Virus record (IMG/VR): IMGVR_UViG_3300034980_000091 | Span: 1 to 46,565 of that record | Direction: 5' to 3' (one strand) | Length of the DNA: 46,565 bases | Source of the DNA: a virus | In this document: in pieces, positions 4,414 to 46,565 of the stretch | Layout: every line of letters begins with the position of its first letter | How positions within the stretch are numbered: the stretch's first letter is position 1 | Program-made: the position numbers and the translations under genes | The notes under the pieces: generated by a model | Database searches by the model: none | What the model was told of the DNA's origin: nothing | The model's input: the letters and a program-made list of their open reading frames with translations, nothing else

Positions 4414-4736
4414 GTAGGGGCGTTAAATATGACGGAGGTAAGCTTCGAATGGAGCTTATCCCTCCCGAGGCATTAGACTCATTAGCTGCTGTGCTTACAT
4501 TCGGAGCTGATAAGTATGATGAACGTAACTGGGAACTAGGTATGAACTGGTCTCGTGTGTATGGCGCTTGTCTTAGGCACCTGAATGCTTGGGTACAATG
4601 CCAAGAGAATGGTACTGATGATGAGACAGGGCTCTCTCACCTAGATCATGCTCTATGTTGTATTGCATTTCTTATTACTTATGAGAAACGTTCTATGTAT
4701 GTACTAGATGACCTGACTTCAAGGAGAGATGTATGA
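4410..4736 (+). CDS. dATP/dGTP diphosphohydrolase-like protein (DUF5664, MazG-like)
   Basis: The 108-residue protein starts at a TTG in a 4-bp overlap. It has the signature of the phage dATP/dGTP diphosphohydrolase N-terminal family: KYDGGKLRMELIPPEAL, then FGADKYDERNWELG, then RHLNAW, and the metal-site-like DDETGLSHLDHALCC. Members are all-alpha NTP pyrophosphatases related to MazG that remove pyrophosphate from deoxynucleotides. It sits beside other nucleotide enzymes (HD hydrolase, ThyX, ribonucleotide reductase). The family match is from motif recognition; the substrate is inferred. Confidence 0.8.
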   Translation: MSRGVKYDGGKLRMELIPPEALDSLAAVLTFGADKYDERNWELGMNWSRVYGACLRHLNAWVQCQENGTDDETGLSHLDHALCCIAFLITYEKRSMYVLDDLTSRRDV

Positions 4737-5482
4737 AGATTTATATCTTAGACATTGAGACTAAGCCAAACCTAGCCTATGTGTGGGGCATCTGGCAACA
4801 GAATGTATTGCCTAGTGGTATGGTTGAACCCTCTGAGATTATTTCCTATGCTGCTAAACAGTTGGGACGTAAGCGTACCTATTACAGAGATGAGAGACAA
4901 GGTGTTAAGCGTATGCTTCGTGGCTTGTGGAAGATCTTGGATGACGCAGATGTCATCATTGGTCATAACAGTGACAAGTTTGATCTCAAGTTAATTAGGG
5001 CAGCGTTGCTTAGAGAGGGCTTCAAACCCCCGTCTCCTTTCCTACAGATCGACACCCTTAAGATTGCTCGTAAAGAGTTTAAGTTTGCAAGGAACAGTCT
5101 TTCAGCTTTGGCTAAGGAGCTAGGTGTTTCACAGAAGAGTGAGCATAAGAAGTTTCCGGGCATTAAACTTTGGACAGAGTGTCTCAAGGGTAATGAAGAT
5201 GCTTGGAAAGAGATGAAGGCCTACAATATTCAGGATGTATTGGTGACTGAAGAAGTCTACATGAAGCTACGTCCTTGGTCTTCTAGTCATCCTAACCTTT
5301 CTAAACCTGATGGCTCTTGCTCTTGTGCAGTGTGTGGTCATAATGAAGTTCAATACCGTGGCTACTATACATCTAGAGTAGGTGTGACATATAGACGCTT
5401 CGTCTGTAAAAGTTGTAATAGCTGGGGCAGAGAGGCTCAATTAGACAAAGACGTCCCTAGACGTTTTGGAAGGAATGTGTAA
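4733..5482 (+). CDS. DnaQ-like 3'-5' exonuclease with C-terminal zinc ribbon
   Basis: This 249-residue ribonuclease-H-fold exonuclease has exo I at LDIET (Asp7, Glu9), exo II at IIGHNSDKFD (Asp81/Asp84) and exo III at YNIQDV (Tyr164, Asp168), giving a DEDDy active site. Residues 198-228 hold two CxxC pairs (C198/C201 and C225/C228), a zinc ribbon. The polymerase carries its own exonuclease domain, so this is a second, separate nuclease, perhaps for DNA breakdown, repair or recombination. It overlaps the upstream gene by 4 bp and the downstream gene by 1 bp. Confidence 0.85.
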   Translation: MKIYILDIETKPNLAYVWGIWQQNVLPSGMVEPSEIISYAAKQLGRKRTYYRDERQGVKRMLRGLWKILDDADVIIGHNSDKFDLKLIRAALLREGFKPPSPFLQIDTLKIARKEFKFARNSLSALAKELGVSQKSEHKKFPGIKLWTECLKGNEDAWKEMKAYNIQDVLVTEEVYMKLRPWSSSHPNLSKPDGSCSCAVCGHNEVQYRGYYTSRVGVTYRRFVCKSCNSWGREAQLDKDVPRRFGRNV

Positions 5483-24311: not shown

Positions 24312-26023
24312 AGTCCAACCTCTGCTGCTACAGCTTGACGTTCTTGTTCTTCGACCTGCATCTCCTGAGCGAACTTCTGAATTTCCATCTGCTCAATAAT
24401 ACCGATGTTGTCTCCGTACAAACCTTCTTCACCAAGTTCTTCTGCGAGGATTTTAGCAATCTTCTTACCACTGAGGTGCGTACCTATGGTGGGGTCCTGT
24501 CTCTGTAGGTTAAGAGCTTGGATCTCTTGAACTCTCTTAGCTTTCTCAGCGAAGTGTCTAGCACCTACAGGGATGATTTTACCTTTAGCAGTAATATCCT
24601 CCTTAGAGATACTAAGAAAGTTTTCTACACCGAGAGAACTATCAAAGGTTCTGACCTTCTCAGCCAGTTCAATATTTCTTCGGCTCACCTCAAGCATTGC
24701 ATTGAGGATAGGTTCCAAGAAGGTACGTTCGAAATGAGCGGCCTTATGTTGGAATACTTTATTGGCAGCCTGTTGAAGACCGTCAAATTCAAAAGCGGTT
24801 TTCTCTCCGGGAGTTCTGAAGCCCATAGCTTGACGTGGTGCGCCGGCCATTTCTTCCATCTGTTCCTGAAGACCACTAATCTGGAAGTCTGCATTAAGAG
24901 CTGTAGTGTCTGGCACCATAGCGTTGACATCTCCGTCATCACCTACGTATGCTCTAGCACCCGGCTCATATACAAAGTCTTCCACCTCTCCTCTAATCTT
25001 GAGCAGTGGGTAAGCGATGAGATCGAATACATCTGCCTTCAAGTTTTCAAGGTGATCAATCCTATACTGCATACCCACAAGGTTATCTAGTGGACCCATA
25101 GCATAAAGATTGTCAGGTCTATTTCGCCAGCCAGTGCAATAGATAGGAGCGTGTCCTAACCAAGAGGGCTGATCTTCTTCTGAGAGTACATAGGCCCGGT
25201 CAATCACCCGAATGATTTTATTCTCGAGCAAGTCGCCTGACTCTTTGTCGAAGATGTCTCCGTAGAATGTGAGCATTTCGACTTGTTCAGAGTCGTAGTA
25301 CGCTTGGATAGAACTAAACCCATCTGCAATGTACCCGTCTGATTTATCGAAAGTAGCGCCCGTTCCTGCTATTGTACCTACCTTTTCTCTGGCATCCAAT
25401 ACCCTCTGGAACATTTCTTCGTCCATCTTTTTGATATCCCCTAGGGACTTCATAGACCGGACTATCTTAGGAGTGCTGGTGAAGTCTACTGCTGTGGGAT
25501 CGAACGTGATATCGTGGATAGAAATCCTATGGACCTTGGGTCCTACGTATCCCGGGATGATCTCTCCCATAACATTGTTGTATTCAGACTGATAGTCTAC
25601 TTGTGCAAAGACCATACCTGTCTCAATGAAATCATCAAGCAAGTCTGATGCTGTAGCAACGAAGCCGCTCAGTCTGACCTTGTTATCAATATAAGTTTCA
25701 ATGAACTTAGCTTTCTCAGAAGACTCCTCATCGTATGACTCCCACCTGTTCCACTCTCTTGAAGGGAATAGAGCAGCGAAGTAGTTCGCATGTAGGTTGT
25801 CTTTGATCTGAGTTAGCTTAGGCACTGTAGTTTTGTTTGCCCAAGGCAGCGCCTGATTGGAAGTGGTTGAAGTGTCAGTGGCATATAGATAGTTTCTCAA
25901 CTCTCTAATCTCTGTAATCTTGCCTTGACGTAGACCTCTCCACAGTGTATCTTTATTAGAAACTGCTCTGGCCAAAGCATCCGGCTGGAGCAGTTCTTCA
26001 ACGTTCATAACTTTCTTAGCCAT
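24308..26023 (-). CDS. portal protein (T7-like head-tail connector)
   Basis: The 571-residue protein forms the dodecameric DNA channel at one capsid vertex. It has the size and features of T7-type connectors: HANYFAALFPSREWNRW near 85-105, TGMVFAQVDYQSEYN, the GPLDNLVGMQYRIDHLENLKADVFDL helix region, and a C-terminal Glu/Gln-rich helix. It overlaps TerL by 1 bp and the next gene by 4 bp. Confidence 0.9.
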   Translation of the reverse strand: MAKKVMNVEELLQPDALARAVSNKDTLWRGLRQGKITEIRELRNYLYATDTSTTSNQALPWANKTTVPKLTQIKDNLHANYFAALFPSREWNRWESYDEESSEKAKFIETYIDNKVRLSGFVATASDLLDDFIETGMVFAQVDYQSEYNNVMGEIIPGYVGPKVHRISIHDITFDPTAVDFTSTPKIVRSMKSLGDIKKMDEEMFQRVLDAREKVGTIAGTGATFDKSDGYIADGFSSIQAYYDSEQVEMLTFYGDIFDKESGDLLENKIIRVIDRAYVLSEEDQPSWLGHAPIYCTGWRNRPDNLYAMGPLDNLVGMQYRIDHLENLKADVFDLIAYPLLKIRGEVEDFVYEPGARAYVGDDGDVNAMVPDTTALNADFQISGLQEQMEEMAGAPRQAMGFRTPGEKTAFEFDGLQQAANKVFQHKAAHFERTFLEPILNAMLEVSRRNIELAEKVRTFDSSLGVENFLSISKEDITAKGKIIPVGARHFAEKAKRVQEIQALNLQRQDPTIGTHLSGKKIAKILAEELGEEGLYGDNIGIIEQMEIQKFAQEMQVEEQERQAVAAEVGL

Positions 26024-27552
26024 TAATGAGCTCGGCCTCCAAATCTTGAGTGGAACTGAACAACATTTTTCTGTTGAACAGCCAAGGTTTGTCTAGGCTT
26101 AACTGAACCTTCAACGGCAGTAGCTAGAGTATCCTTTACATCATCATGAGGCGGCCTGCTAGAAACAAGCTCGTCCTCCAGTACAGCACAGTTACCACCT
26201 CTGTAGTGGAAGACCTGATCAAGTTCGTACCTAGGATGTAGGACCGCTTCGATCCTCTCTTCCTTGTTACCTCTTGATCTAACCTCTTCTACTTTAAGAG
26301 CTAGGTTGTGTGGTACTACGTAGTCTTTCTTCAGACTCTTGACAATACTTTCCTGTGCAGCATTGACCTCTGCTCTAAGTTTCTTGAACCCCCACTTCTG
26401 GTGCAGGTACAAAATCTTATCAAAGTACTCAGAGATATGTGGAGTCTTAAAACGTTCTATGTCTAGGATGTAGATGTTACCGTCACTGTCACAACCTATA
26501 ACAACAATACAGGTATAGTCAGCTGACTTCCTAACTGAGAATGCAAAGTCAATGGCTGCCACTAGGTTCAGCCTCTTACCTTTGTACATCCACACTCCAC
26601 CCTGTTGTCTAACCAATCCACGATCAAAGTATTGAAAGCGTTGGAAGTCAATGGGCTGGTTGTCAGGGTCATTAGGGTCATTGTAGTACTGAGCTCGGAA
26701 CTGAGCCTTGTCTAGGTACTTAGCTTTTTTCAAAGCGTAGACATGAATGTCAAACCCAAACCACTTACCGTCCTTACTCTTTGTCCTAGGCCAGAGATAT
26801 TCTCCTGACCCATCTCCTACATCTTCAACGCTCCTCTGCATAACTTCATATACAGGAGCTTCACTAACCATCTTACCATCTTCGTCATACACCTCTTGGT
26901 GCATGTCCATCATCTCGCCGTAAAGATCTGAAGGGTTATACCGTGTACCTACACTCCACTCCTTACAATCAGCGCCTTCAATAGAACTCAGCAGTGAGTA
27001 CTGACGCTTGACTTTGTTACGACCTTCGTTAGTGTCTGCGTTATCCCCGGTTACAATATCATCCATGACAGCAATGTCACAGTGTAGACCTACAAGGTTT
27101 GTTGTCAGGCCTGCTGTAAAGACTGAAGGGTCACGAATGTTCCACTTCTCTCTGTCCGGGTGATCGAGACTAATCTCTGTGTTGGTCCACTTCTCTCTCT
27201 TGCCTTCTTCTCTGTGAAGGTGATTAGGCCAGTATCTCTGGAATGTCTTAGAAGTTAAGATGCCTTTGATAAAGCCCAGCTGTTTCTCAGCTAGGTTAGA
27301 GGTTGAAGAGATGTACAAAATTCTTAGTGTAGGATCTTTAGCTAAGGACTGAGCAACTCTGAAACCAATCAGAGCACTCTTCATGTGGTCTCTAGGGTAT
27401 AGAAGAAGTTGGTGGGACTTAGCATCCGGCCTTTCCCACCAGTCAATAACTTCTCTGTGACAAGAAGACAATGCTCTAGTAGGAGCTACGAGGCCAATGA
27501 ATACCTCTAGGCTGTCTTCTGCTGCCTTTCTTACAATGTCAAACTTGTCCAT
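26023..27552 (-). CDS. terL: terminase large subunit
   Basis: The 509-residue packaging motor has an N-terminal ATPase with a deviant Walker A, YPRDHMKSA (52-60), and Walker B DIAVMDD (159-165). The C-terminal nuclease has acidic residues at VAAIDFAFS (Asp335), YILDIERF (Asp364) and RPPHDDVKD (Asp470/471). The GxGKS loop is replaced by PRDHMKS, as seen in some T7-like and marine podovirus terminases. Confidence 0.92.
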   Translation of the reverse strand: MDKFDIVRKAAEDSLEVFIGLVAPTRALSSCHREVIDWWERPDAKSHQLLLYPRDHMKSALIGFRVAQSLAKDPTLRILYISSTSNLAEKQLGFIKGILTSKTFQRYWPNHLHREEGKREKWTNTEISLDHPDREKWNIRDPSVFTAGLTTNLVGLHCDIAVMDDIVTGDNADTNEGRNKVKRQYSLLSSIEGADCKEWSVGTRYNPSDLYGEMMDMHQEVYDEDGKMVSEAPVYEVMQRSVEDVGDGSGEYLWPRTKSKDGKWFGFDIHVYALKKAKYLDKAQFRAQYYNDPNDPDNQPIDFQRFQYFDRGLVRQQGGVWMYKGKRLNLVAAIDFAFSVRKSADYTCIVVIGCDSDGNIYILDIERFKTPHISEYFDKILYLHQKWGFKKLRAEVNAAQESIVKSLKKDYVVPHNLALKVEEVRSRGNKEERIEAVLHPRYELDQVFHYRGGNCAVLEDELVSSRPPHDDVKDTLATAVEGSVKPRQTLAVQQKNVVQFHSRFGGRAH

Positions 27553-27563
27553 ATTATACCTTA

Positions 27564-29237
27564 TTAAATCACCACCCCTGCATCAGCGTAGTTAGGAGTG
27601 AGGATACTATGCCCTGTTCCTAACGAGTCTGTGACAGGAGCGTTTGAGTTATCTAGGTTGTAGTTGTGTGTCCAGAATAGATTACAGTTTGAACCAGCTG
27701 CAAAGAACCTACCCGGATTAGAAGCACAGTTTAGATATGTACCTTCCTTGAAGCTTGTAAAGGTTCTTTCCGTATTTGCATTGTTACTAACAAGCCAACC
27801 GTAGTTACCAGCATCTGGATTGAAGAAGTCTCCAACAGATGTTAAGCTTTCATAGGACTTAGAGTAGATAAGAAGTGGTGCATAATCACCGCCCGATACC
27901 TGACTCCTGAACGTATTACCAGAGCTGAAGATACGAGAGTACCTACCTTGGAGCATTAGCCCTGTACGCTGTCCATGGAATGTATTACCAATGAAGGTGC
28001 CAGTCTTTGTTGCACCTGCTGTACCTGATTCATCATAACAAGCATTAGACCCTGTAGTGAAGGTTAGTGCAGTTAGGTGACAACCAATAACAGTCCAGTT
28101 CAAACCTCTCCACTGAATACCACCATATGAACTGTTAGTAAACAGATTGTGGAAAGTGTAGTTGTTAGCTCCTGCGTGACTTCCGAAAGGAGGTCTATGG
28201 TTTCTATAAGCTCTTAGGTTAGAGATGCTGCCGTTCTCAGTAAAGGAACCATCTTGCATGTGTCTTGTTCTGTAGCTGCTACAGTCTCTGAATACGATGT
28301 TCGTACAGAACGCTGTGAAGAAGCCATAGAAGCCGCTATTTGTTCCCTCTACAACATCGTCGTCACTATCAAGGTAGCCTCTCATTGTGCCACCGTGTAC
28401 TGTGATGTTCATAGTGAGCTGGCTTCTGACAACAAAACCTTGGAAGCCTTCTACATATCCAATCTCAATATCAACGTCTGTAACTCCAAGGTCGAAGTTG
28501 TATGCGATTATTCCTGAACCATTACCTACGTTATCGTCATCTGCTGGGAAAGGTCTTACTCCACCTCCATAAAGATTACCACCTCTGAAGGTGATGTTAG
28601 AGATGGGTCTCAAACCCTGCATAAGATAGGTGTAGGTTGTACCGTCTAGATCAATAGGGCTGGCATAGTCGAATGTAATCGTAGTGCCGCTAATATCTTT
28701 GATCCGGTTCATCATCCATCGTTCGATAACTTCAGTACCTGTTTCATACCAAGTTTCACCTGAACGTCTGAAGTAGATGATGTCACCAATCTGAATGTTA
28801 GAACTAGAAGTGACTTGACAATCTTCTCCATGAAGATCAATGTTTCCAACTAAGTCGGCATAGAGAATGGTCTCGCCTTTAACATTGAACAAGCCATGAC
28901 TACCAGCAACCGTATTACTCAGAGGGATTTCAGTTGCATCAATAGTTGCACCTGTCATCTCGACATGCATATTACTGGTTGTGATGTTTAACTCTTGGCT
29001 AACCTTGTAGGTTTCACCAGATGTAAAGAGAATAGTTCCGCCGCCGTTAGCTGCTGCTGCATCAATAGCCAGCTGAATAGCTGGGCCATCATCTGTAACA
29101 CCATCTGCTAAAGCACCGAAGTCTTCTGGTCGATATTTACCGCCTAAGACTTTACGTACTTCCTCTTTCCTTAAAGACTCAGGTCTTAAATTCTCTTTCT
29201 TTAGAAGTTCGAAGAAAGGCAGGTTTCTTTGTGTCAT
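27564..29237 (-). CDS. beta-helix tailspike, pectate-lyase-like
   Basis: The 557-residue protein has a short N-terminal particle-binding part. A pectate-lyase/GH28-type start follows at about 35-85 (RPEDFGALADGVTDDGPAI; AANGGGTILFTSGETYKV), then many short beta-helix turns (NITFRGGNLYGGG; TFIGNTFHGQRTG). Such proteins bind or cleave host surface polysaccharide. It lies between the probable small terminase and TerL. Confidence 0.85.
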   Translation of the reverse strand: MTQRNLPFFELLKKENLRPESLRKEEVRKVLGGKYRPEDFGALADGVTDDGPAIQLAIDAAAANGGGTILFTSGETYKVSQELNITTSNMHVEMTGATIDATEIPLSNTVAGSHGLFNVKGETILYADLVGNIDLHGEDCQVTSSSNIQIGDIIYFRRSGETWYETGTEVIERWMMNRIKDISGTTITFDYASPIDLDGTTYTYLMQGLRPISNITFRGGNLYGGGVRPFPADDDNVGNGSGIIAYNFDLGVTDVDIEIGYVEGFQGFVVRSQLTMNITVHGGTMRGYLDSDDDVVEGTNSGFYGFFTAFCTNIVFRDCSSYRTRHMQDGSFTENGSISNLRAYRNHRPPFGSHAGANNYTFHNLFTNSSYGGIQWRGLNWTVIGCHLTALTFTTGSNACYDESGTAGATKTGTFIGNTFHGQRTGLMLQGRYSRIFSSGNTFRSQVSGGDYAPLLIYSKSYESLTSVGDFFNPDAGNYGWLVSNNANTERTFTSFKEGTYLNCASNPGRFFAAGSNCNLFWTHNYNLDNSNAPVTDSLGTGHSILTPNYADAGVVI

Positions 29238-36187: not shown

Positions 36188-36264
<77 letters not shown>

Positions 36265-36938: not shown

Positions 36939-36998
36939 ATGGATTGTGAAGCTGAAGAATATCACTGGTGGTTTGGAACTGGGGGTCAACGTCGATGA
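36939..36998 (+). CDS. possible 19-residue minigene coupled to the ligase island
   Basis: ATG follows AAAAGG at 7 bp and the frame (MDCEAEEYHWWFGTGGQRR) ends in an ATGA overlap with the start of the glutamine-amidotransferase-like gene. This arrangement suggests a leader that sets translation of the next gene. It could also be chance. Confidence 0.3.
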   Translation: MDCEAEEYHWWFGTGGQRR

Positions 36999-37756
36999 TT
37001 TTATTCTCGAAGGTAAATAGAGTTTATGTCGTTGACTACAATCTGTTCGACTTTGATGTCATGCCTAAGACAGGTCTTAAAGACCCGAACCTGTCAGAAG
37101 AAGGTCATAAGGTTTTTGGTAGTCACCTTTATGCCCCCTTTTATGCCTCCTCTCATTACACCAGAACTGCTGCATACTGGCACATAGTCAACGTCTTCAA
37201 AGACTATGAGATCAGAACTCTGTGTCCTTTCCGTCTTGAGACAGATGTTATTCACCGAGAAGCTGATGTGCTGACAAAGGATGACATCCTCTTGTTCACT
37301 GGAGGTGAAGACGTTGGTGACAACCATCACCGTGATGCCTATGAGAAACTCGTGTATGACATGTACCCTCATGCCATCAAGGTGGGCATCTGTCGTGGTG
37401 CTCAGTTCCTCAACGTCATGAATGGAGGGGTGTTGGTTGATCACATTAAAAGCAATGGACATGTGCTTGGTCACCACCGTGTCAACAAAGATTGGGCTGA
37501 TACCCAAGAGTTTGAGCCTATGCTTAAAGGCATCACCTATCTAACCTCTACCCATCACCAAGGCATCATCCCCCACCCTGTTACAGCGACAACTTTCGTC
37601 ACCTGTCCTAATGATGGTGTGGCCGAGGCGTTCTGTTACAAGGGCACCAGATGTGTTGGTATACAAAGTCACCCCGAGTACATAGAAGCGATAGGTGGGG
37701 AGGACACTAACACACTATTCACCCGTATCTGTGCAGCCTCCGGTCTGTTCGATTAA
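36995..37756 (+). CDS. class I glutamine amidotransferase-like hydrolase (peptidase C26)
   Basis: The start at 36995 (MILFSKVNRVYVVDYN) gives 253 residues and an ATGA overlap. Landmarks of the gamma-glutamyl hydrolase/GATase I fold are ILLFTGGEDVG (99-108), the nucleophile elbow GICRGAQFLN with Cys133, STHHQG (185-190), and the His226/Glu228 pair in SHPEY. Relatives cleave gamma-glutamyl bonds (folate polyglutamate, gamma-Glu-GABA) or release ammonia from glutamine. It opens the island of ligases. The substrate is unknown. Confidence 0.9.
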   Translation: MILFSKVNRVYVVDYNLFDFDVMPKTGLKDPNLSEEGHKVFGSHLYAPFYASSHYTRTAAYWHIVNVFKDYEIRTLCPFRLETDVIHREADVLTKDDILLFTGGEDVGDNHHRDAYEKLVYDMYPHAIKVGICRGAQFLNVMNGGVLVDHIKSNGHVLGHHRVNKDWADTQEFEPMLKGITYLTSTHHQGIIPHPVTATTFVTCPNDGVAEAFCYKGTRCVGIQSHPEYIEAIGGEDTNTLFTRICAASGLFD

Positions 37757-37776
37757 CCTGTTCTGAGGAGAACACA

Positions 37777-38181
37777 ATGCAAGAATTCATCTTCGTATAT
37801 GGTACGTTGAAGAACAACTATCACAACTCTGCCTTGTTTGCAGACTCGCCTATGATAGGTGAAGCCCAGACTGTGGAGCCTTACCAGACATACTCTGAAG
37901 GCATCCCTTATGTCATTCACCCTAACTATACCAATCCCAATGGTCCGTCTCGCCTCCCTGTCAAGGGTCAGGTGTGGAGTGTGACAAGCCCAGACATTCT
38001 GAGGTCGTTGGATGGACTGGAAGGCCACCCCGATTGGTACCGCCGCGAAAAAATTATGGTGCAGATGGGCGATGGCTTCGAAGAAACAGCTGAGGTTTGG
38101 TGTTACCTGATGCCAAACAACATGGAAAATCGTGACGGACATTCAATGCCAATCAATGAGGATGGTATCTATGAGTACTAA
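37777..38181 (+). CDS. gamma-glutamylcyclotransferase-like protein (AIG2/GGCT)
   Basis: The 134-residue protein has a strong GAGGAG ribosome-binding site. It carries the substrate-binding VYGTLKNNYHN (7-17) and the catalytic Glu82 in LDGLEGHPDWYRR, then the VWCYLM strand. Family members convert gamma-glutamyl-amines or -amino acids to 5-oxoproline, trimming gamma-glutamyl groups. It overlaps the next gene by 8 bp, so it is coupled into the island. Confidence 0.9.
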   Translation: MQEFIFVYGTLKNNYHNSALFADSPMIGEAQTVEPYQTYSEGIPYVIHPNYTNPNGPSRLPVKGQVWSVTSPDILRSLDGLEGHPDWYRREKIMVQMGDGFEETAEVWCYLMPNNMENRDGHSMPINEDGIYEY

Positions 38182-39166
38182 GACAGCGGACTACTATGCG
38201 AAACTCAAGTTTGAAAGAAAAGAGAGGGACAAAAAACTCTACGAAATTTCAGAGAACCTTCGTTCTGAATGGCGCACCTGTCCTAAAGCTCGCAAAAAAT
38301 TAGTGGAGCTGATGAAGATACATCAGAACTCTCCTGCCAAACAGGGTAAAAATTACCATCATATGTATAACAAACCAGAGCCTAATCCACACAAACTGCC
38401 TAATTACTACAGAGGCTCTTGTATGGATCTTAAGTACCTCTTAGACGGGTCTGGACATGTCCATGTGTACAATGAGGGTGGTTGTTGGGGCAGCTTCTTG
38501 TCAAAACACAGACCCACCACTTTGTGTGTGCCAATCAAAAGTACCAGCGTTGACAAGGATGTCATCGAGTGGCTGATCAATACACCAATGCTGAAGAAGG
38601 TGCTGGTCAACCCCGATGTAAAGTCTGTTCTTGCTAACGGGTTTGTCATCGACACTGAGCAGGCTTACTATTCAGAGTGGTATGTTCCCGCAATGTTCTG
38701 TCGCAGTATCTCTGAACAAACCGCAGGAACATACTTCCCGCAGGGCTTCTTCGATAAGATCAAAAATTGCAGTGGCTTTGTGAAATACTGGATGTACATG
38801 GCCAACCCTGTCTCTTTGGGAAATAACTTTAAAGAGTATGTGATCTGCCTGTTCCCAGATGTCCACGGTCAGTGCTGGCAGAGTAATGAAACTCGGCTCG
38901 GAATTAAGACCTTGGTGGAGATGCCTGTGCAAGAGATTATTGCCCCTGAAAACATGAGGAACAAATTCTATGGTCGTAACGAGGTTCACGCCGCTGAATG
39001 GGCGCTCAAGAAGAAAGATGAGAAGTCTTTGTACAGAGTATCAATGGACGTACAAGGTGGCCGTATAGATGATGATCGTATCTACTGTAATAGTAATAAA
39101 GCCTACCTCAAAGACATAGAGACGGCCATCGAAGTCTTGGAAGCAGTGGAAAAAGAAGGAGTCTAG
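38174..39166 (+). CDS. 330-residue unknown protein in the ligase island
   Basis: The start at 38174 (MSTKTADYYAKLK) is chosen for its GAGGATG site and 8-bp overlap. The N-terminal 60 residues are Lys/Arg-rich and helical. A Gly/His/Cys-containing part follows (SGHVHVYNEGGCWGSF near 93-108) and a mixed alpha/beta body with several Cys and Trp. It lies between the cyclotransferase and the amidotransferase, so it may supply or bind the substrate. No family was recognised. Confidence 0.8.
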   Translation, partial: STKTADYYAKLKFERKERDKKLYEISENLRSEWRTCPKARKKLVELMKIHQNSPAKQGKNYHHMYNKPEPNPHKLPNYYRGSCMDLKYLLDGSGHVHVYNEGGCWGSFLSKHRPTTLCVPIKSTSVDKDVIEWLINTPMLKKVLVNPDVKSVLANGFVIDTEQAYYSEWYVPAMFCRSISEQTAGTYFPQGFFDKIKNCSGFVKYWMYMANPVSLGNNFKEYVICLFPDVHGQCWQSNETRLGIKTLVEMPVQEIIAPENMRNKFYGRNEVHAAEWALKKKDEKSLYRVSMDVQGGRIDDDRIYCNSNKAYLKDIETAIEVLEAVEKEGV

Positions 39167-39167
39167 T

Positions 39168-40586
39168 ATGTGTGGAATTGTAGGTATGATAGGTGATCTT
39201 CATAAGAGTGACTGGTCTTTGATGAGGCACCTATTGTTCATGAACACAACCCGTGGTGTACACAGCACTGGCCTGTTCTACGTTGGCAGTGATTGTGAAG
39301 TTAAAATGGAGAAGAGCCAAGGCGCACCCGGAAATCTCTATGAAGATGAGTCCTCTGATATCTGGGACTGGGAGGGTAAGGTTTTACCCAATGCTCCTGT
39401 ACCAAAAATCATTGTGGGTCACAACCGCTTCGCTACGAAAGGCAAGATCAATTCTGAAAATGCACACCCCTTCAACGTGGGTGACTGGTTCGGCGTACAC
39501 AATGGCAGTCTGGAGAGGTATCGACACCTTTCTAAGACCCTCCATGAAGTGGACAGCAAGTACATCATTGACGGCTGTAACCAAAGCGGCTTCACTTCAA
39601 CGTGGGAGTCTATGCGTGGCGCAGCAGCAGTGGTTGCCTATGATCAGAAGAAAGATCTGCTTCACATAGCGAGGAACGAGGAACGCCCTCTTGTATTTGC
39701 TAAGCTGCGTGGTGAAAAAGCTTGGATCTTTGCATCTGAAGCTTGGATGATCCACGCCTTGTACATGAAGGAAGGTACGTCTTCCCTCTATACAAGACCC
39801 GAGTGCACCATGTTTGACAAGAACAAGCTGTACACTGTGAAGGTAGGCAAGGGTGGTTGCGAAACAACAACCTCTCCTCTCCGAAACAACGTGGAAAAAT
39901 ACAGTTTTTATTCAGGAGGTGGCTCGGGTTTTGGAAATAACAAATCTCACAAGGGCGGGAACCTTGCCTCTGTTAGGGTTACAGAGCTACTTAAGAAACA
40001 GAGTAACAGTGGTTGGGCTCTGAATACCTCGGGATGGAAAGAGGCATCGTCTAGGCATAACATTAACCTAGGTGATCACCTTGACATTGAGTTGATCGTT
40101 AAGTCCACTACCTCTCTCAGTCCTTGGGTTATGCAAATGCATCAGAAAACCTTGCGTCACCTTGCGTTCACGGTCAAGGCTGGTCACAAACTGGAAGGTG
40201 TCCCGGTATTTGTATACCTCGATGACAAAAAGTCGTGGCTCAAGATGCACGAAAACACAGGAGATCTGAAAAATCCTGAGGTAATGGTGAGGTTCAACTC
40301 CCGTCCTCGTCTGGTAATTGGGGAACGCAATCAGGTTATTGCAATTCATTGCTCTATCCGTTCGATCTGGCTTGACCCAATCAAGAAGAAAGAAGAAAAG
40401 GAGGAGATGTTCAAATGTTATATGTGCGAAGGCGACTATAGCACTGACAAAAGAGTAGATCTTCCTGCTCCCGACATCGGGGGTATAGTACACGATGTGT
40501 GCAAAGGATGTGCCACAACGTTGGGCTATTATGTAGAAGAAGAGAAAACATCCACCCATTCCACCCGAAGCAATGTCTTGCAATAA
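39168..40586 (+). CDS. class II glutamine amidotransferase (GATase II) protein
   Basis: The 472-residue protein begins MCGIVGMIGD; Cys2 is the expected N-terminal nucleophile. RGVHSTG (29-35), GHNRFATKG (84-92), NAHPF (98-102) and HNG (111-113) complete the Ntn-type glutaminase site that releases ammonia from glutamine. The C-terminal 200 residues lack a recognisable synthetase. They include a ssDNA- or substrate-binding-like region and a zinc knuckle (CYMC and CKGC). Ammonia is probably passed to a separate partner such as the ligases downstream. Confidence 0.9.
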   Translation: MCGIVGMIGDLHKSDWSLMRHLLFMNTTRGVHSTGLFYVGSDCEVKMEKSQGAPGNLYEDESSDIWDWEGKVLPNAPVPKIIVGHNRFATKGKINSENAHPFNVGDWFGVHNGSLERYRHLSKTLHEVDSKYIIDGCNQSGFTSTWESMRGAAAVVAYDQKKDLLHIARNEERPLVFAKLRGEKAWIFASEAWMIHALYMKEGTSSLYTRPECTMFDKNKLYTVKVGKGGCETTTSPLRNNVEKYSFYSGGGSGFGNNKSHKGGNLASVRVTELLKKQSNSGWALNTSGWKEASSRHNINLGDHLDIELIVKSTTSLSPWVMQMHQKTLRHLAFTVKAGHKLEGVPVFVYLDDKKSWLKMHENTGDLKNPEVMVRFNSRPRLVIGERNQVIAIHCSIRSIWLDPIKKKEEKEEMFKCYMCEGDYSTDKRVDLPAPDIGGIVHDVCKGCATTLGYYVEEEKTSTHSTRSNVLQ

Positions 40587-40600
40587 GGAGACAGAATAAC

Positions 40601-41380
40601 ATGACTGTAACTATCGGAGCTGACCCAGAAGTCTTCCTTTTGAAGGAAGGTAGCATGGTCACACCCACTGGCCTGATCGAAGGCACTAAGCTTGAGCCTT
40701 TTCCTGTCGAGAAGGGCGCAATTCAGCAGGATGGTACCGCAGCAGAGTTTAACATTGACCCCACTTCCACGCCTGAAGAATTCGTTGACAACCTCAGTGT
40801 TGTTATGCGTCAGCTTGAGGAACTGTCTGGTTGTGAGCTTGACCCTGAAGTTGTGCGACACTGGGGCTTCGCGGCGCTGAATGATATGTCTGATACAGAG
40901 AAAGTGATGGGTTGCGAACCAGACTTCAATGCTTGGAGTGGTAAGGTTAATCCCAAGCCTTCTGCTGAGACGCCCTTCCGTACAGCGGGTGGTCACGTAC
41001 ACGTTGGCTTCATCAGTGGGGGTGCTAACGATCCGGGTTACAGAAGTTACATTGAACCCCTTGTTAGAATTCTTGACGAACAGATTGGTGTACCTTCTCT
41101 GCTATGGGATGGCAACTCTGAACGTCGTGAGTTGTATGGCAAGGCTGGTGCTTACAGGCCCAAGGTCTTTGGACTTGAGTACAGGGTGCTGTCAAACGCA
41201 TGGATCAAGAACCCGGCTGTGTGTGAGTTCATCTTCAACCAAGCCACTAAGGCTGTGGAAATGTGGAAGAGAGGACACGAGGCATCAAAGGATGCTTTGG
41301 ATATCATCAACGGAAACAAATACGAAATGGCAGAGAAGTTTTGCCTTGAACACGAGGTTCCAATCAATGATTTTAGGTAA
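40601..41380 (+). CDS. phiEco32-type COOH-NH2 ligase (amidoligase type 2)
   Basis: The start at 40601 (MTVTIGADPEVFLL) gives 259 residues. The glutamine-synthetase-like metal and ATP site is seen in GADPE (6-10), QQDGTAAEFN (42-51), GGHVHVGF (130-137) and GLEYRVLSNAW (191-201). This is the signature of the phage COOH-NH2 ligase type 2 family first noted in phiEco32. The enzyme should join a carboxylate to an amine with ATP. The stop overlaps the next gene by 14 bp. Confidence 0.9.
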   Translation: MTVTIGADPEVFLLKEGSMVTPTGLIEGTKLEPFPVEKGAIQQDGTAAEFNIDPTSTPEEFVDNLSVVMRQLEELSGCELDPEVVRHWGFAALNDMSDTEKVMGCEPDFNAWSGKVNPKPSAETPFRTAGGHVHVGFISGGANDPGYRSYIEPLVRILDEQIGVPSLLWDGNSERRELYGKAGAYRPKVFGLEYRVLSNAWIKNPAVCEFIFNQATKAVEMWKRGHEASKDALDIINGNKYEMAEKFCLEHEVPINDFR

Positions 41381-41963
41381 CGACAGAGCTTACAACGAGA
41401 GGAGTCTTGTAGGAACAGTGCTCCTTACAAGGACAAGTCAGCCAGTTCTGATTAATGCACTTGAGGACAGAGGAAGTTCTTGTGTTGTGAACTACATCAA
41501 GGAGGGAGAAACAGATAAGATCCCAACAAAGGATCTGGATCTCAGCAACCCTTTATTGTTGGGCAATGTCAACCAGTCTGGTCGAGTGTTGTGGGCGCAC
41601 CGTAAAGCCTCTCGTCAATACAGGGCTGGCCTGTCACAGAATAACTTGACGATCGTTGACAAGTTCAGGACCAGAGAGAGGCTTAACTATTCTAGTAAGC
41701 CAATTGCTAACTCTCTTATAGGAAACTTCCCTCCTTTCGAAGAGTCTTACGAAGCAATCAAGAAAGGTTTCGCCAAGCAGGTTGCAATCAGTCGTAACGT
41801 GACGATAGCTGAACACCCAGCCCATGAGAACAACGGTGATCTGATTTTATTCTGGGACAACAAGCATGTTGGTTCCCTTGAAGGATCTGAAGGGTTTAAA
41901 CTGAAAGAAGAATATGAGTTCTTGTCTGAAGCTATAGGAGATATCCTCAATGAAAACCATTAG
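41367..41963 (+). CDS. 198-residue unknown protein between two amidoligases
   Basis: The start (MILGNDRAYNERSLVG) lies in the end of the preceding ligase gene, and the end overlaps the next ligase by 14 bp. Sequence features include a beta-rich N-terminus (VLLTRTSQPVLINALEDRG) and a helical C-terminus. It might be a partner subunit or the substrate protein; that is inference from position. Confidence 0.75.
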   Translation: MILGNDRAYNERSLVGTVLLTRTSQPVLINALEDRGSSCVVNYIKEGETDKIPTKDLDLSNPLLLGNVNQSGRVLWAHRKASRQYRAGLSQNNLTIVDKFRTRERLNYSSKPIANSLIGNFPPFEESYEAIKKGFAKQVAISRNVTIAEHPAHENNGDLILFWDNKHVGSLEGSEGFKLKEEYEFLSEAIGDILNENH

Positions 41964-42978
41964 TCAAATCATCAAAGCCGGATCTGTTAAAGGTACCTTC
42001 GGTGTTGAAATTGAAGTCGAAGCCAATCGTGGACGGTTGAATGACATTAACTATTCAGACATCGGCTGGGTGTACACAAGAGATGACAGTCTCAGAGGTG
42101 AGGCATGTGAACTGGTCTTCCCTCGTCCAAAAGATCTGGACAAGTCTAAGGAGTTGATCGACACCTTGATGTCAAATTTTGATGCGAGACGTATCGAACC
42201 GGGTGACAACGGAAGATCTGGTACACACATTCATGTCAACATGAGAGACCTCACAGTTTCTCAGGTTCTGAAGTTCGCCTTCTATTGGTACATGATTGAA
42301 CAACTGGTGATCACTTGGAATGGAGAGAGCAGGGAAGCTAACATGTTTGCCCTTCCAATCATCTCCTCTCCACATCTGCTGGATCTTCTTCCTCAGTTTG
42401 CTTCTCGCAAAAACGTCGATAGTATGTATGATTTGTTTCATGAAGACCATGTGAAATATTCTGCGCTGAATTTTTGTAGGCTAAGAGATCTTGGCACACT
42501 GGAGACACGTTGTTGGAGCCCTGTCCGAATGGATGTGGTTAAAGCAGGGTTGGATATCTTGCACAACATCAAAGAGATTGTGAAAGAGGACGACTCTCTG
42601 TTGACAATCTCAGAAGACTACTCGATGACAGGTATCGAAGAGTTCTTGTCTCCCATCTTCAAGGAACATTACGAGAAGATGCGTAAGGAAGTTGACATGT
42701 CAGATGCAGAGTTGAGAGACTTGCTTCAGCTCAGCTTCAGGTCCATTCAGTTCTCTTTGCGGGAGTGTCACAGAGAGCTTGTGAAGACCCCCAAAAAAAA
42801 GACCTATGGTGACGAGTCAATTCCACTAGGAATAGATGAAGTTGACGTAAGAGTTAGGGGCAACCCTTTCCCCCGTGTTGAACAGGGTCATCGTCAAAAC
42901 AGATATTTCGAAGTGCTTGATGAAGAAACAGTAGTAATGGAAGAATCAGGATACATAGTTCCAGACGCAGAAGTCTAG
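41950..42978 (+). CDS. amidoligase (second GS-like carboxylate-amine ligase)
   Basis: The 342-residue protein has the amidoligase family pattern: FGVEIEVE (17-24), CELVFPRP (53-60), GTHIHVNM (91-98), YSALNF (170-175) and GTLETR (182-187). These are the metal/ATP residues of the glutamine-synthetase-like fold. It is distinct from the type 2 ligase upstream, so the phage has two such enzymes. It overlaps the upstream gene by 14 bp. Confidence 0.88.
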   Translation: MKTISQIIKAGSVKGTFGVEIEVEANRGRLNDINYSDIGWVYTRDDSLRGEACELVFPRPKDLDKSKELIDTLMSNFDARRIEPGDNGRSGTHIHVNMRDLTVSQVLKFAFYWYMIEQLVITWNGESREANMFALPIISSPHLLDLLPQFASRKNVDSMYDLFHEDHVKYSALNFCRLRDLGTLETRCWSPVRMDVVKAGLDILHNIKEIVKEDDSLLTISEDYSMTGIEEFLSPIFKEHYEKMRKEVDMSDAELRDLLQLSFRSIQFSLRECHRELVKTPKKKTYGDESIPLGIDEVDVRVRGNPFPRVEQGHRQNRYFEVLDEETVVMEESGYIVPDAEV

Positions 42979-43033
42979 ACCTATCAGCCCGCCATTAACT
43001 ACATAGAAGAAGAACTCTAAACGGAGAATTACT

Positions 43034-43876
43034 ATGAAGAACTTGAAAGTACTGCCTTACAAAGTTGCCTCAGAAAGCGCGAAAACTTTGGCCAATGGCC
43101 TTGGTGTTAAACGTTTACGACTGAAAGGAAGTAAAGCTAACTTCGGTCGTTCCAGTGTCACTATCAACTGGGGCAACACAGACAATGGCCACGATTGTTA
43201 TACAGGTGAAGGCACTGTCCTCAATCAACCAAGTGCTGTTAAGTTTGCAGTGAACAAGGCAACCTTCCTACAAGGGTTGAGTGATGAGTCTTACATTCCT
43301 CGCTCAACCACAGAGAAGAAGGAAGCTCGTGACATGTTCGCTTTTTGCAAGAAGATTGTTGTGAGAGAGGTGTTGACAGGCAGTGCAGGTAAAGGCATCA
43401 CCATCCTAGATGCTGTCAACTTCGAACACTATGACCACAGTAAGGCTAAGCTGTATGTTGAGTACATCCCTAAGAAGTATGAATATCGTATTCATGTGGT
43501 TGACGGGAAAGTCATTGACCGACGACGTAAGGCTCGTAAGAAAGACGTGTCTGATGAGGATGTCAACTGGCAGGTCAGGAACCTAGAGAATGGGTTTATC
43601 TATGCCATTGACCCTGATTTCGACTTCCCTAAAGAGGCTGACAAAGTTGCAATTGATTGTGTAGCGAAAGCTGGCCTTGACTTCGGCGCTGTAGACATCG
43701 TTCACAACACTACCAGAGGGTGCTCGGTGCTTGAGATTAACTGTGCTCCCGGTCTTGAAGGCACTACAGTTGAGAGTTATGTCAAAGCGTTTCAGGAAAT
43801 GGCTGGCAATATCAAAGACGGTGTGTCAGAACCAGCCTTTGGTGCTGCTAATGGTGGGGGTCAGTTCTGTGGATAG
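43034..43876 (+). CDS. ATP-grasp ligase (RimK-like)
   Basis: The 280-residue protein has an ATP-grasp core: IVVREVLTGSAGKGI (108-122), the phosphate-binding loop; YVEYIPKKYEYRIHV (141-155); VVDGKVID; and the metal site with VDIV (220-223) and LEINCAPG (233-240, Glu234 and Asn236). It probably activates a carboxylate as acyl-phosphate and joins it to an amino group, as RimK adds glutamates. It closes the island, directly upstream of the primase-helicase. Confidence 0.9.
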   Translation: MKNLKVLPYKVASESAKTLANGLGVKRLRLKGSKANFGRSSVTINWGNTDNGHDCYTGEGTVLNQPSAVKFAVNKATFLQGLSDESYIPRSTTEKKEARDMFAFCKKIVVREVLTGSAGKGITILDAVNFEHYDHSKAKLYVEYIPKKYEYRIHVVDGKVIDRRRKARKKDVSDEDVNWQVRNLENGFIYAIDPDFDFPKEADKVAIDCVAKAGLDFGAVDIVHNTTRGCSVLEINCAPGLEGTTVESYVKAFQEMAGNIKDGVSEPAFGAANGGGQFCG

Positions 43877-44045
43877 GGAAGATTATATACAAAAGGAGGA
43901 CGTCTACTGGTACATCTACCTTAGTGGCATCCTCCTTAATGTACCATTCCACAGTGAACAAGAAGCAGAAGACTTCTATAGAAGAGAAATAAAACCAGCG
44001 AGGTTATATAATGACAGGTGTTTGTTACGAAAGAATAAGACATGA
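43851..44045 (+). CDS. 64-residue small protein upstream of primase-helicase
   Basis: It overlaps the ATP-grasp gene by 26 bp and the primase-helicase gene by 35 bp. ATG 43851 is given; GTG 43869, with a GGTGGGGG site, may be the real start. The part YWYIYLSG...VPFHSEQEAEDF...KPARLY resembles HWYSQEVEG..FFHSTKEEAEE...KPKVIY in the gene just after the helicase (45728), suggesting a pair of paralogues. Confidence 0.6.
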   Translation: MVGVSSVDREDYIQKEDVYWYIYLSGILLNVPFHSEQEAEDFYRREIKPARLYNDRCLLRKNKT

Positions 44046-45726
44046 AGCATGTGGTGGTGGAGGCTTACAAGTATATGCAAATGATGACGGGACTACTACC
44101 GGGTTTTGCTGGAGTTGCAGTACTTATGTGCCTGATCCTTATGGAGACGGCAGGAAAGTTGAACCTCCAAAACCTCTATCTGAGGAAGAGATTGAAGAAA
44201 CTCTCTCAGAGGTAGGTGGTTATGATACTGTTGATGTACCCTCACGTCATCTCAGTGCCAAAGATCTAAACGCATGGGGCATCAAGACCTCTCTGTCTGA
44301 GTCAGATGGAAAGACACCCACTGCATTCTACTGTCCTGTAGAGGTGGGGGATAAGGTCACAGGCTACTATGTCAAGACCATCCCTCAGAATGAAGGAGAA
44401 AAAAGCCAAGTCTTTGCATTAGGTGAAGTCAAGAACCCAAAGCCTATTGGTTGGAACAGAGCCATAACTTCTGGCTCACATACTCTGATCATCACTGAAG
44501 GTTTCTTGGATGCAGTTTCTGTAGAAAAAATCTTTAACTATCTGTTGAAGAAGAAGGAGTATACACCTGCTATTGTGTCTCTACCTAATGGGGTGCACAG
44601 TGTTAAGGTTTTCGCTGGCCTATTGAATGAACTTAAACATTTCAAGAGAGTCGTGTCTTGTTTAGATAACGACGAAGCCGGTCAGAAGGCTGCGGCTGAG
44701 TTGGCTAAGATTATCCCTGACTTACAGAATGCAGTGTTACCTATGAAGGACCCTAATGAGTGTCTTGTAAACGGCATAGGTAAGAAAGTATTCCAGATGC
44801 TGTCCTTCGATGGTCCACCCCCAACTAAGAACACCCGTCTCGTGAGAGGTAGGGATGTACATGACCAAGCAAGGGTGCCTACTCAACCCGGTGAACTGTC
44901 GTGGCCCTTCCCTAAGATGAACATCCTGACTAGGCGCATACGATTAGGTGAGACAATCTACATCGGTGCTGATGTTAAGATGGGCAAGAGTGAGCTTCTG
45001 AATGCTATTGCTTCACACATTATCACAGAGGATGGAGTACCTGTACTCGTAGCTAAGCCTGAAGAAACAAACGATCTCACTTATAAGATGTTTGCAGGTA
45101 AGGTTGTAGGTGCTGTGTTCCATGATCCTGATGTACCTTTCGATGAGAAGCTGTATGATGAGGCAGGTGAGTACCTGAAAGACAAGCTGGTAATGATTGA
45201 CCTGTACCAACACTTAGGTTGGGAGACACTCAGGTCTGACATCATTGCAGCTGTACATGAAGACGGTGTGAAAGCTGTATTCATTGACCCCATCACCAAC
45301 CTGACCAATGGCATGGCATCAGCGGATGCTAACACAATGCTGCAAGGTTTGGCACAAGAGGTAGCAGCACTAGCTAAAGACCTGAACATCGTGGTCTTCA
45401 TGTTCTGTCACCTCAAAGCTTCTGATATAAACCTAAGTTCTGAGGCACGTCAGCGGAACTACAATGCTGGCAAGTTCAGAGGGCTAGGTAGTATCAGACA
45501 TTCAATTGGTGGTAACGTATACTCCACACAGTTTGCTGCAAGTCGTGGCATGATGAGGAGTTGTCACCTAATGCTAGGGTTGGAAGGTAACAAAGACCCT
45601 GATCTACCCATGGAAGAACGTAACAAGAGAGACCTAGTTATCCTTGAAGACAGGATGTTTGGTAACTCTGAACGTATCACCCTTACATGGGACCCTGAAA
45701 CCACACTGTTCAAGGAGGCTGAATGA
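44011..45726 (+). CDS. bifunctional primase-helicase (T7 gp4-like)
   Basis: The 571-residue protein joins a zinc-binding primase and a RecA-like replicative helicase. The zinc site has H11-x2-C14 and C33-x2-C36. The TOPRIM part has Glu163 in ITEGFLDAVS and Asp219/Asp221 in CLDNDEAGQ. The helicase has Walker A GADVKMGKS (319-327) and Walker B VFIDPITN (423-430), then a DNA-binding region with FCHLKASD. T7 gp4 is 566 residues. It unwinds the fork for the polymerase encoded just downstream. Confidence 0.94.
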   Translation: MTGVCYERIRHEACGGGGLQVYANDDGTTTGFCWSCSTYVPDPYGDGRKVEPPKPLSEEEIEETLSEVGGYDTVDVPSRHLSAKDLNAWGIKTSLSESDGKTPTAFYCPVEVGDKVTGYYVKTIPQNEGEKSQVFALGEVKNPKPIGWNRAITSGSHTLIITEGFLDAVSVEKIFNYLLKKKEYTPAIVSLPNGVHSVKVFAGLLNELKHFKRVVSCLDNDEAGQKAAAELAKIIPDLQNAVLPMKDPNECLVNGIGKKVFQMLSFDGPPPTKNTRLVRGRDVHDQARVPTQPGELSWPFPKMNILTRRIRLGETIYIGADVKMGKSELLNAIASHIITEDGVPVLVAKPEETNDLTYKMFAGKVVGAVFHDPDVPFDEKLYDEAGEYLKDKLVMIDLYQHLGWETLRSDIIAAVHEDGVKAVFIDPITNLTNGMASADANTMLQGLAQEVAALAKDLNIVVFMFCHLKASDINLSSEARQRNYNAGKFRGLGSIRHSIGGNVYSTQFAASRGMMRSCHLMLGLEGNKDPDLPMEERNKRDLVILEDRMFGNSERITLTWDPETTLFKEAE

Positions 45727-46059: not shown

Positions 46060-46565
46060 ATGACATACATAGTAATGGACATAGAAGCCAATGGGTTATG
46101 GCATGAAGCTACTAAACTACATGTTGTATCATATGCTAAGAAAGGGGAGAAGATTAAATCTACCATAGATCCTATAGTAATACAGGAACTGGTAGGTAAC
46201 CCTGATCATACCATCATTGGACACTACTTCATCGAGAGCGACAAACCTACATTAGAGAAGCTAGGGTATGAGGTTAGAGCTAAGATCATAGATACTCTTT
46301 ACCTCTCCTACTACCTCTTCCCCTTACGTGCAAGGCACGGACTAAACTTCTGGGGTACAGAGTTCGGAGTACCTAAGCCTAAGATTGATGACTGGGAGAA
46401 CCTCTCCTATGATGAGTACAGGGTTAGGTGTGAAGAAGATGTAAAGATTACAGCCAAGCTTTGGAAGAAGGAAGAAGAATACCTTAAGGCTCTATACCCT
46501 GAAGGCTACGACCACCTGATTGAACACCTCTCCTTCAAGAGTGAGTGTATGGCTGAACAATCACA
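46060..46565 (+). CDS. DNA polymerase, family A, N-terminal exonuclease part
   Basis: This begins the polymerase gene, which runs off the window and resumes at base 1. It carries the 3'-5' proofreading domain: exo I at VMDIEANGL (Asp7, Glu9), exo II around IIGHYFIESD, and exo III at YRVRCEEDV (Asp127). An untemplated break in frame is excluded because 46423 and base 1 share codon phase. The two copies of the overlap differ at one codon, CTG (Leu) at 127 and ATG (Met) at 46549. Confidence 0.95.
   Translation, partial: MTYIVMDIEANGLWHEATKLHVVSYAKKGEKIKSTIDPIVIQELVGNPDHTIIGHYFIESDKPTLEKLGYEVRAKIIDTLYLSYYLFPLRARHGLNFWGTEFGVPKPKIDDWENLSYDEYRVRCEEDVKITAKLWKKEEEYLKALYPEGYDHLIEHLSFKSECMAEQS
46423..46565. 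repeat. right copy of terminal assembly overlap
   Basis: It is identical to bases 1-143 except for A at 46549 against C at 127. See the left copy for interpretation. Confidence 0.9.

Follow-up and report, generated by a model that had tools for sequence, protein, structure and literature searches.

What is the function of a phage locus that encodes three ligases, two glutamine amidotransferase (GATase)-like enzymes and a gamma-glutamyl cyclotransferase, together with two further proteins that we call X and U? This question is raised by positions 36995-43876 of IMG/VR virus record IMGVR_UViG_3300034980_000091, the full 46,565 nucleotides of which we refer to as the window. An earlier reading of the window, made by a model from the letters alone (the sequence-only reading), had taken these eight genes for a candidate undescribed modification system. 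Comparison with other phages identifies the set as a member of a known, widespread phage cassette, here with both of the cassette's gamma-glutamyl-cleaving hydrolases and a divergent U protein. As to what the cassette does, we lean, with somewhat better than even confidence, toward a gamma-glutamyl-protected amide-ligation pathway that is expressed with the replication genes.

The eight genes of the locus

All eight open reading frames are present on the + strand, tightly packed and partly overlapping, with gaps between successive genes of 20, -11, 1, 14, -14, -14 and 55 bp; the island noted in the sequence-only reading is thus real. Gene coordinates are given for the best start codons, and families were assigned by Pfam and PHROGs searches, which agree with the enzyme families that had been named from the letters. 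The first gene (36995-37756) encodes a C26, or class I GATase-like, hydrolase of 253 residues (P0001; PF07722 Peptidase_C26, 6e-13), and the second (37777-38181) encodes a gamma-glutamyl cyclotransferase of the AIG2/GGCT type with 134 residues (P0002; PF06094 GGACT, 1e-19). These are followed by the U protein (38171-39166; P0003, 331 residues) and by a class II GATase, GATase-II (39168-40586; P0004, 472 residues; PF13522 GATase_6, 7e-14; PHROG 4736, 8e-57). A GCS-like, phiEco32-type COOH-NH2 ligase type 2 (40601-41380; P0005, 259 residues; PF14395, 2e-9; PHROG 3815, 7e-71) and an Amidoligase_2-like amidoligase (41950-42978; P0007, 342 residues) flank the X protein (41367-41963; P0006, 198 residues; PHROG 11055, 4e-23), and a RimK-like ATP-grasp ligase (43034-43876; P0008, 280 residues) completes the set. 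None of the eight proteins matches a PADLOC defence-protein model.

Residue conservation was assessed over 12 to 24 phage homologues per family, and the catalytic residues that the sequence-only reading had pointed out are intact. Cys133, His226 and Glu228 of the C26 hydrolase are conserved in all 15 homologues, and an S-x-HHQ motif (185-189) is invariant along with this Cys-His-Glu triad in 14-15 of them. Glu82, the catalytic residue of the cyclotransferase, is conserved in 12 of 12 homologues, and for GATase-II the figures are 21 of 24 for Cys2 and 24 of 24 for Arg87, Asn112, Gly113 and Asp129. The COOH-NH2 ligase scores 37.8 bits against a PF14395 cut-off of 25, and its residues E10, K30, E49, H132, H134, R175, R186, E193 and R195 are invariant among phage homologues; a PDB sequence search with its alignment returned nothing useful. 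The amidoligase falls under the Pfam PF12224 cut-off (18.5 bits against 22; 0.002), yet it matches PHROG 7469, 'amidoligase enzyme', at 4e-44, and E20, E22, E24, E54, H93, H95, R128, E185 and R187 are invariant in 23 of 23 homologues. The ATP-grasp ligase has a weak Pfam RimK match (PF08443, 2e-5) and a strong match to PHROG 2599 (2e-66), with K75, E150, R152, K166, D221, E234 and N236 conserved in 24 of 24 homologues. P0004 carries paired CxxC motifs at 417 and 445 (window 40416-40512), which form a zinc-ribbon-like C-terminal tail. Most cassette GATase-II proteins end in paired CxxC motifs of this zinc-ribbon-like kind.

Recurrence of the gene set in other phages

A cassette of seven genes has been published under the name 'peptidoglycan modification cassette', with a presumed role in preventing superinfection, for PSA-HP1/RIO-1, phiEco32, 7-11, PA11, tf, MR299-2, LUZ24, PaP3 and CW02 (PMC5498523, which cites Hardies 2013 and Iyer), and the same genes have been described piecemeal in UFV-P2 (PMC3890496). 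The window contains the components of the RIO-1/phiEco32-type cassette, namely GATase-II, COOH-NH2 ligase, amidoligase and ATP-grasp ligase together with the cyclotransferase, beside a primase/helicase. The system is therefore not an undescribed one, and the number of ligases, which had been called striking for one phage operon, is the ordinary content of the known cassette. What survives of the sequence-only interpretation is that three ligases and two gamma-glutamyl-cleaving enzymes form one unit whose genes travel together.

A tblastn search of 50,697 phage records gave 316 with the COOH-NH2 ligase, 311 with the ATP-grasp ligase and 326 with GATase-II, with near-matching genus counts. We found the cassette in 23 annotated phages, which include Citrobacter phage CVT22, CW02, PA11, PaP3, phiEco32, LUZ24, RIO-1, phiM6, GP100, Privateer, LAh_9, Vibrio phages and others; a primase/helicase lies close by in nearly all of them. 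A crAss-like phage has most of the set, without a recognised amidoligase or X. Scans of IMG/VR viral contigs with P0003, P0004 and P0005 as single proteins produced no match, and a 22-member alignment found at least 580 stretches that encode the COOH-NH2 ligase; the best 80 were fetched, 55 of them with enough flanking sequence. All five core genes (GATase-II, COOH-NH2 ligase, X, amidoligase and ATP-grasp ligase) are present in 55 of these 55 contigs, and the primase lies inside the locus in 52. Four contigs carry two ATP-grasp genes, one 5' and one 3' of the ligases.

The genes thus co-occur, a point that the sequence-only reading had proposed to check: the same set is found in near-same order in hundreds of phages, and the recurrence of one gene order across dozens of phages is far beyond chance. 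A cassette that stays nearly constant in hundreds of phages of many Gram-negative hosts must be useful. We considered cellular genomes as carriers and rejected them; 84,980 species yielded 15 COOH-NH2 ligase loci, several of which are plainly phage, and two of the loci lack the other genes. The closest relative of the cassette, with a COOH-NH2 ligase 54% identical to that of the window, lies on a 4.9-kb flavobacterial metagenome-assembled genome contig (L105, 1-4900), where it abuts an amylase-like bacterial gene. This contig may be an assembly chimera.

Exchange of the C26 hydrolase and the cyclotransferase

Whole-record scans of the 23 annotated carriers detected the cyclotransferase in 13 and the C26 hydrolase in 14, with both enzymes in 4 and neither in 0. 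Among the 55 contigs, the C26 hydrolase is present in 50, the cyclotransferase in 21 and both in 16, and again no contig lacks both. The window cassette is one of those with both. These two unrelated enzymes, each of which cleaves gamma-glutamyl groups, substitute for one another across cassettes. Since one or the other is always present and each is able to replace the other, gamma-glutamyl removal is probably an obligatory step of the cassette. Such an exchange would be expected if the pathway used gamma-glutamyl as a protecting or carrier group, as the Puu and butirosin pathways do. The C26 family profile matches Lin1909 (5e-20), PuuD (2e-9) and three 'probable glutamine amidotransferase' entries, with GMP synthase ranking behind, and by sequence the hydrolase is of the PuuD type, closer to Lin1909 and PuuD than to synthetase-linked GATases.

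The X and U proteins

X and U are conserved members of the cassette. The X family (PHROG 11055) is weakly conserved and normally lies between the COOH-NH2 ligase and the amidoligase; as a core gene it occurs in every one of the 55 contigs, and U is present in 52 of them. The membership of X and U, along with the exchangeable and probably obligatory gamma-glutamyl-cleaving enzyme, is what our comparison adds to the published cassette.

PDB sequence searches with the X and U alignments gave nothing useful. Structure prediction had been proposed for both proteins in the sequence-only reading. The AlphaFold2 model of P0006 has a predicted local distance difference test (pLDDT) score of 92.5 and a predicted template modelling (pTM) score of 0.86. 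In its first 60 residues it resembles barrels of the Tudor, PWWP, KOW and SH3 types, with a Foldseek probability of 1.0 over 48 residues but E values of 0.06 or worse; structure comparison by VIA-align gave Z scores of up to 6.4. The model suggests that X has an N-terminal SH3-like barrel and may be a docking protein.

For U, a homologue (L103) was modelled with a pLDDT of 85, a figure that applies to L103 and not to P0003. Neither Foldseek nor VIA-align found a credible PDB fold match for this model, and a missing match is no proof of a new fold. Among its top 20 BFVD matches, those with a named source belong to CVT22, CW02, RIO-1 and C3/LAh/GAP52-type phages, which are cassette carriers or their relatives. 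P0003 itself has no direct tblastn match among the phage records and no hhalign match to a 9-member U profile; its sole link to the family is a match to the iterated profile of U (E=9e-6, Z=20000). Across the family, a Cys, an Arg, a Glu and a His are nearly invariant, and U may be an enzyme. P0003 aligns at the Arg and at a Cys (C84 or C105, depending on the alignment) but not at the His.

Proposed pathway and alternatives

In the pathway that we favour, two ATP-using enzymes, the GCS-like COOH-NH2 ligase and the Amidoligase_2 protein, would couple an amine to a glutamate carboxyl and an amine to a second carboxylate, and the RimK-like ATP-grasp ligase would add a third residue. The class II GATase would either release ammonia from glutamine or transfer a glutamyl group. 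The PuuD-type C26 hydrolase or the cyclotransferase, or in the window both, would then take a gamma-glutamyl protecting or carrier group off an intermediate or the product, and X, through its predicted SH3-like barrel, and U may serve to dock the enzymes or their target. All of these enzymes would be made in the cytoplasm along with the replication enzymes. In PaP3, expression of ORF32-48 is highest at 10-30 min, as is that of the replication genes, which makes it middle-phase (PMC4707531), and from our own reading of that locus the PaP3 cassette comprises ORF42 to ORF48. Mass spectrometry of phage SU10 detected the ATP-grasp ligase, GATase-II, a YtfP-family (GGCT) protein and gp86 (PMC4281155).

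Several points weigh against this pathway. The SU10 preparation was not CsCl-purified, and the proteins are shown as made, no more (PMC4281155). C26-fold proteins can be plain glutaminases, in which case their exchange with the cyclotransferase could reflect shared glutamine/glutamate handling and not deprotection. If the two enzymes occurred independently, the complete lack of double absences would have p=9e-4 among the 23 carriers and p=0.006 among the 55 contigs, values that ignore common descent. These 55 contigs are also the ones most similar to the query; they are biased toward close relatives and include near-duplicates. Finally, we found no product, substrate or mutant phenotype of any cassette member in the literature. 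As for the target of such a pathway, three possibilities strike us as about equally likely: the cell envelope, as has been guessed in print; a macromolecule inside the cell, either protein or DNA; or a soluble metabolite.

The published reading is that, after infection, the ligases introduce unusual linkages into the side chains of peptidoglycan and thereby block superinfecting phages. In its favour, the stems of peptidoglycan have gamma-D-Glu links and are assembled by ATP-grasp and Mur ligases. This reading has been stated for RIO-1/phiEco32/LUZ24-type phages (PMC5498523) and repeated for OM43 phages (PMC10580990), and all of the named carrier hosts that we noted have the Gram-negative type of envelope, although that restriction may merely reflect phage ancestry. 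The role is nevertheless a guess; the literature yielded no muropeptide or superinfection experiment, nor any other that backs a cell-wall target. Moreover, Pfam and PHROGs name no transport or cell-wall-binding domain in the cassette proteins, and the genes adjoin DNA replication genes, with which they are co-expressed in PaP3. We regard a peptidoglycan target as possible but doubtful.

An equally tentative case can be made for tagging of phage or host proteins with peptides, either in the way that RimK adds glutamate to ribosomal protein S6 (polyglutamylation) or as in the R2K ATP-grasp proposal. The cassette ATP-grasp ligase is RimK-like, linked ligases have been reported to act successively (PMC4431377), and X resembles SH3-like/KOW/Tudor barrels, which elsewhere bind RNA polymerase, the ribosome or peptides. 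Against this, the fold matches of X are weak (the Z score of 6.4 is the best, over 48 residues), and no acceptor protein is known.

Modification of DNA or nucleotides is unlikely, though it deserves attention. Here, an amide-linked group would be put on phage DNA, or a small inhibitor would block host nucleases. The phiEco32 group, which carries the cassette, shows a remarkable resistance to restriction-modification systems with no known means (PMC11990801), and the link between this unexpected resistance and the cassette is newly drawn here. GATATC, the EcoRV site, occurs 36 times in phiEco32 and 33 times in Bas94, compared with 11 for the reversed control, and GAATTC occurs 12 times in phiEco32. 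Because EcoRV sites are plentiful in both phages, the resistance of the group does not stem from a lack of sites. The cassette also adjoins the primase/helicase and the polymerase. A more specific version, to which we give slightly less credence still, is that the cassette is an unrecognised anti-restriction system that places an amide-linked amino-acid-type group, via gamma-glutamyl-protected intermediates, on phage DNA or a host factor and so explains the resistance of the phiEco32 group.

The authors who reported that resistance propose a dCTP deaminase and a nucleotidyltransferase instead, and their main text does not name the cassette genes (PMC11990801). In addition, DNA of phage Delta (Bruynoghevirus) is cut by BamHI (PMC8540360) and that of tf by HaeIII (PMC3517423), which makes bulk G or C modification unlikely in the LUZ24-like group. 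GAATTC is far rarer than control words in PaP3, Delta and CW02 (in the CW02 record, one copy against 15 of the reversed word), as expected of restriction-exposed DNA, and we found no nucleoside analysis in the literature. The failure of SmaI on Delta DNA was considered as a sign of modification and rejected, as the Delta record has no CCCGGG site at all, compared with 6 for the control.

The least likely alternative is auxiliary nitrogen or thiol metabolism, in which nitrogen from glutamine, passed on to amino acids or compounds akin to glutathione, would supply the replicating phage: it was claimed for phage ZRK32 (amidoligase, GATase, 'glutathione synthase' and GGCT), which promoted growth of P. 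stutzeri on nitrate or ammonium, but that experiment added whole phage and not genes (PMC10945688), the ligase family is nearly absent from cellular genomes, and X and U, conserved without a recognised enzyme domain, fit plain metabolism poorly.

The gamma-glutamyl-protected amide-ligation pathway and its alternatives lend themselves to experiment. The BASEL collection includes E. coli phages with the cassette, so its function can be tested in a laboratory strain.

Genome context

The neighbour of the cassette in most phages, a DNA primase/helicase outside the proposed pathway, is encoded at 44011-45726 on the + strand (PHROG 239, 1e-113) and starts 134 bp 3' of the ATP-grasp gene. Just upstream of the island is a tRNA-Arg (TCT) gene (36188-36264). 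The window terminase (26023-27552) is ~61% identical to those of Cobavirinae (Zobellviridae) phages of 39-41 kb, ICBM1 among them. In ICBM1 (40.2 kb) and T5S1-k141_653015 (45.4 kb), near relatives by terminase, the COOH-NH2 ligase, the sole cassette gene tested for, is absent; thus, within the Cobavirinae group the cassette has probably been gained or lost as a unit.

Window positions 46060-46565 align to residues 7-151 of the CVT22 DNA polymerase, and positions 1-1482 align to residues 139-502. Because the DNA polymerase gene spans both ends of the window, the record probably represents a circular genome that was opened there. A second, separate DNA polymerase exonuclease subunit (4733-5482; PHROG 403, 5e-83) is encoded in addition to the exonuclease part of the polymerase gene, and a tailspike-like protein (27564-29237) is similar only to one of Pelagibaca phage vB_PeaS-P1 among the 50,697 phage records.

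Comparison with known systems

In the E. coli Puu pathway, the ligase PuuA adds a gamma-Glu group and the C26 hydrolase PuuD removes it. In butirosin synthesis, BtrJ (an ATP-grasp enzyme) and BtrG (of the GGCT type) likewise add and then remove gamma-Glu. The window cassette would work like these pathways, with gamma-Glu added by a ligase and removed by a C26 or GGCT enzyme, the similarity to PuuD being one of profile; nothing in them corresponds to its set of three ligases, to GATase-II, or to X and U.

Among phages, the RIO-1-like podoviruses resemble the window in having GGCT, GATase-II, the gamma-glutamyl (COOH-NH2) ligase, a second amidoligase and an ATP-grasp ligase beside replication genes. 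RIO-1 lacks the C26 hydrolase, whereas the window has C26 and GGCT, both upstream of U. LUZ24/PaP3 and phiEco32 share with the window the five core genes, GGCT and the primase neighbour; in contrast to the window, they have GATase-II after the amidoligase and no C26 hydrolase, and PaP3 and LUZ24 have two U-like proteins. CW02, CVT22 and PA11 (Zobellviridae) have the gene order of the window, C26 - GATase-II - COOH-NH2 ligase - X - amidoligase - ATP-grasp - primase, with protein identities to the window of 25-45%. Like the window, CW02 has both the C26 hydrolase and GGCT, but its GGCT gene lies downstream of the ATP-grasp gene.

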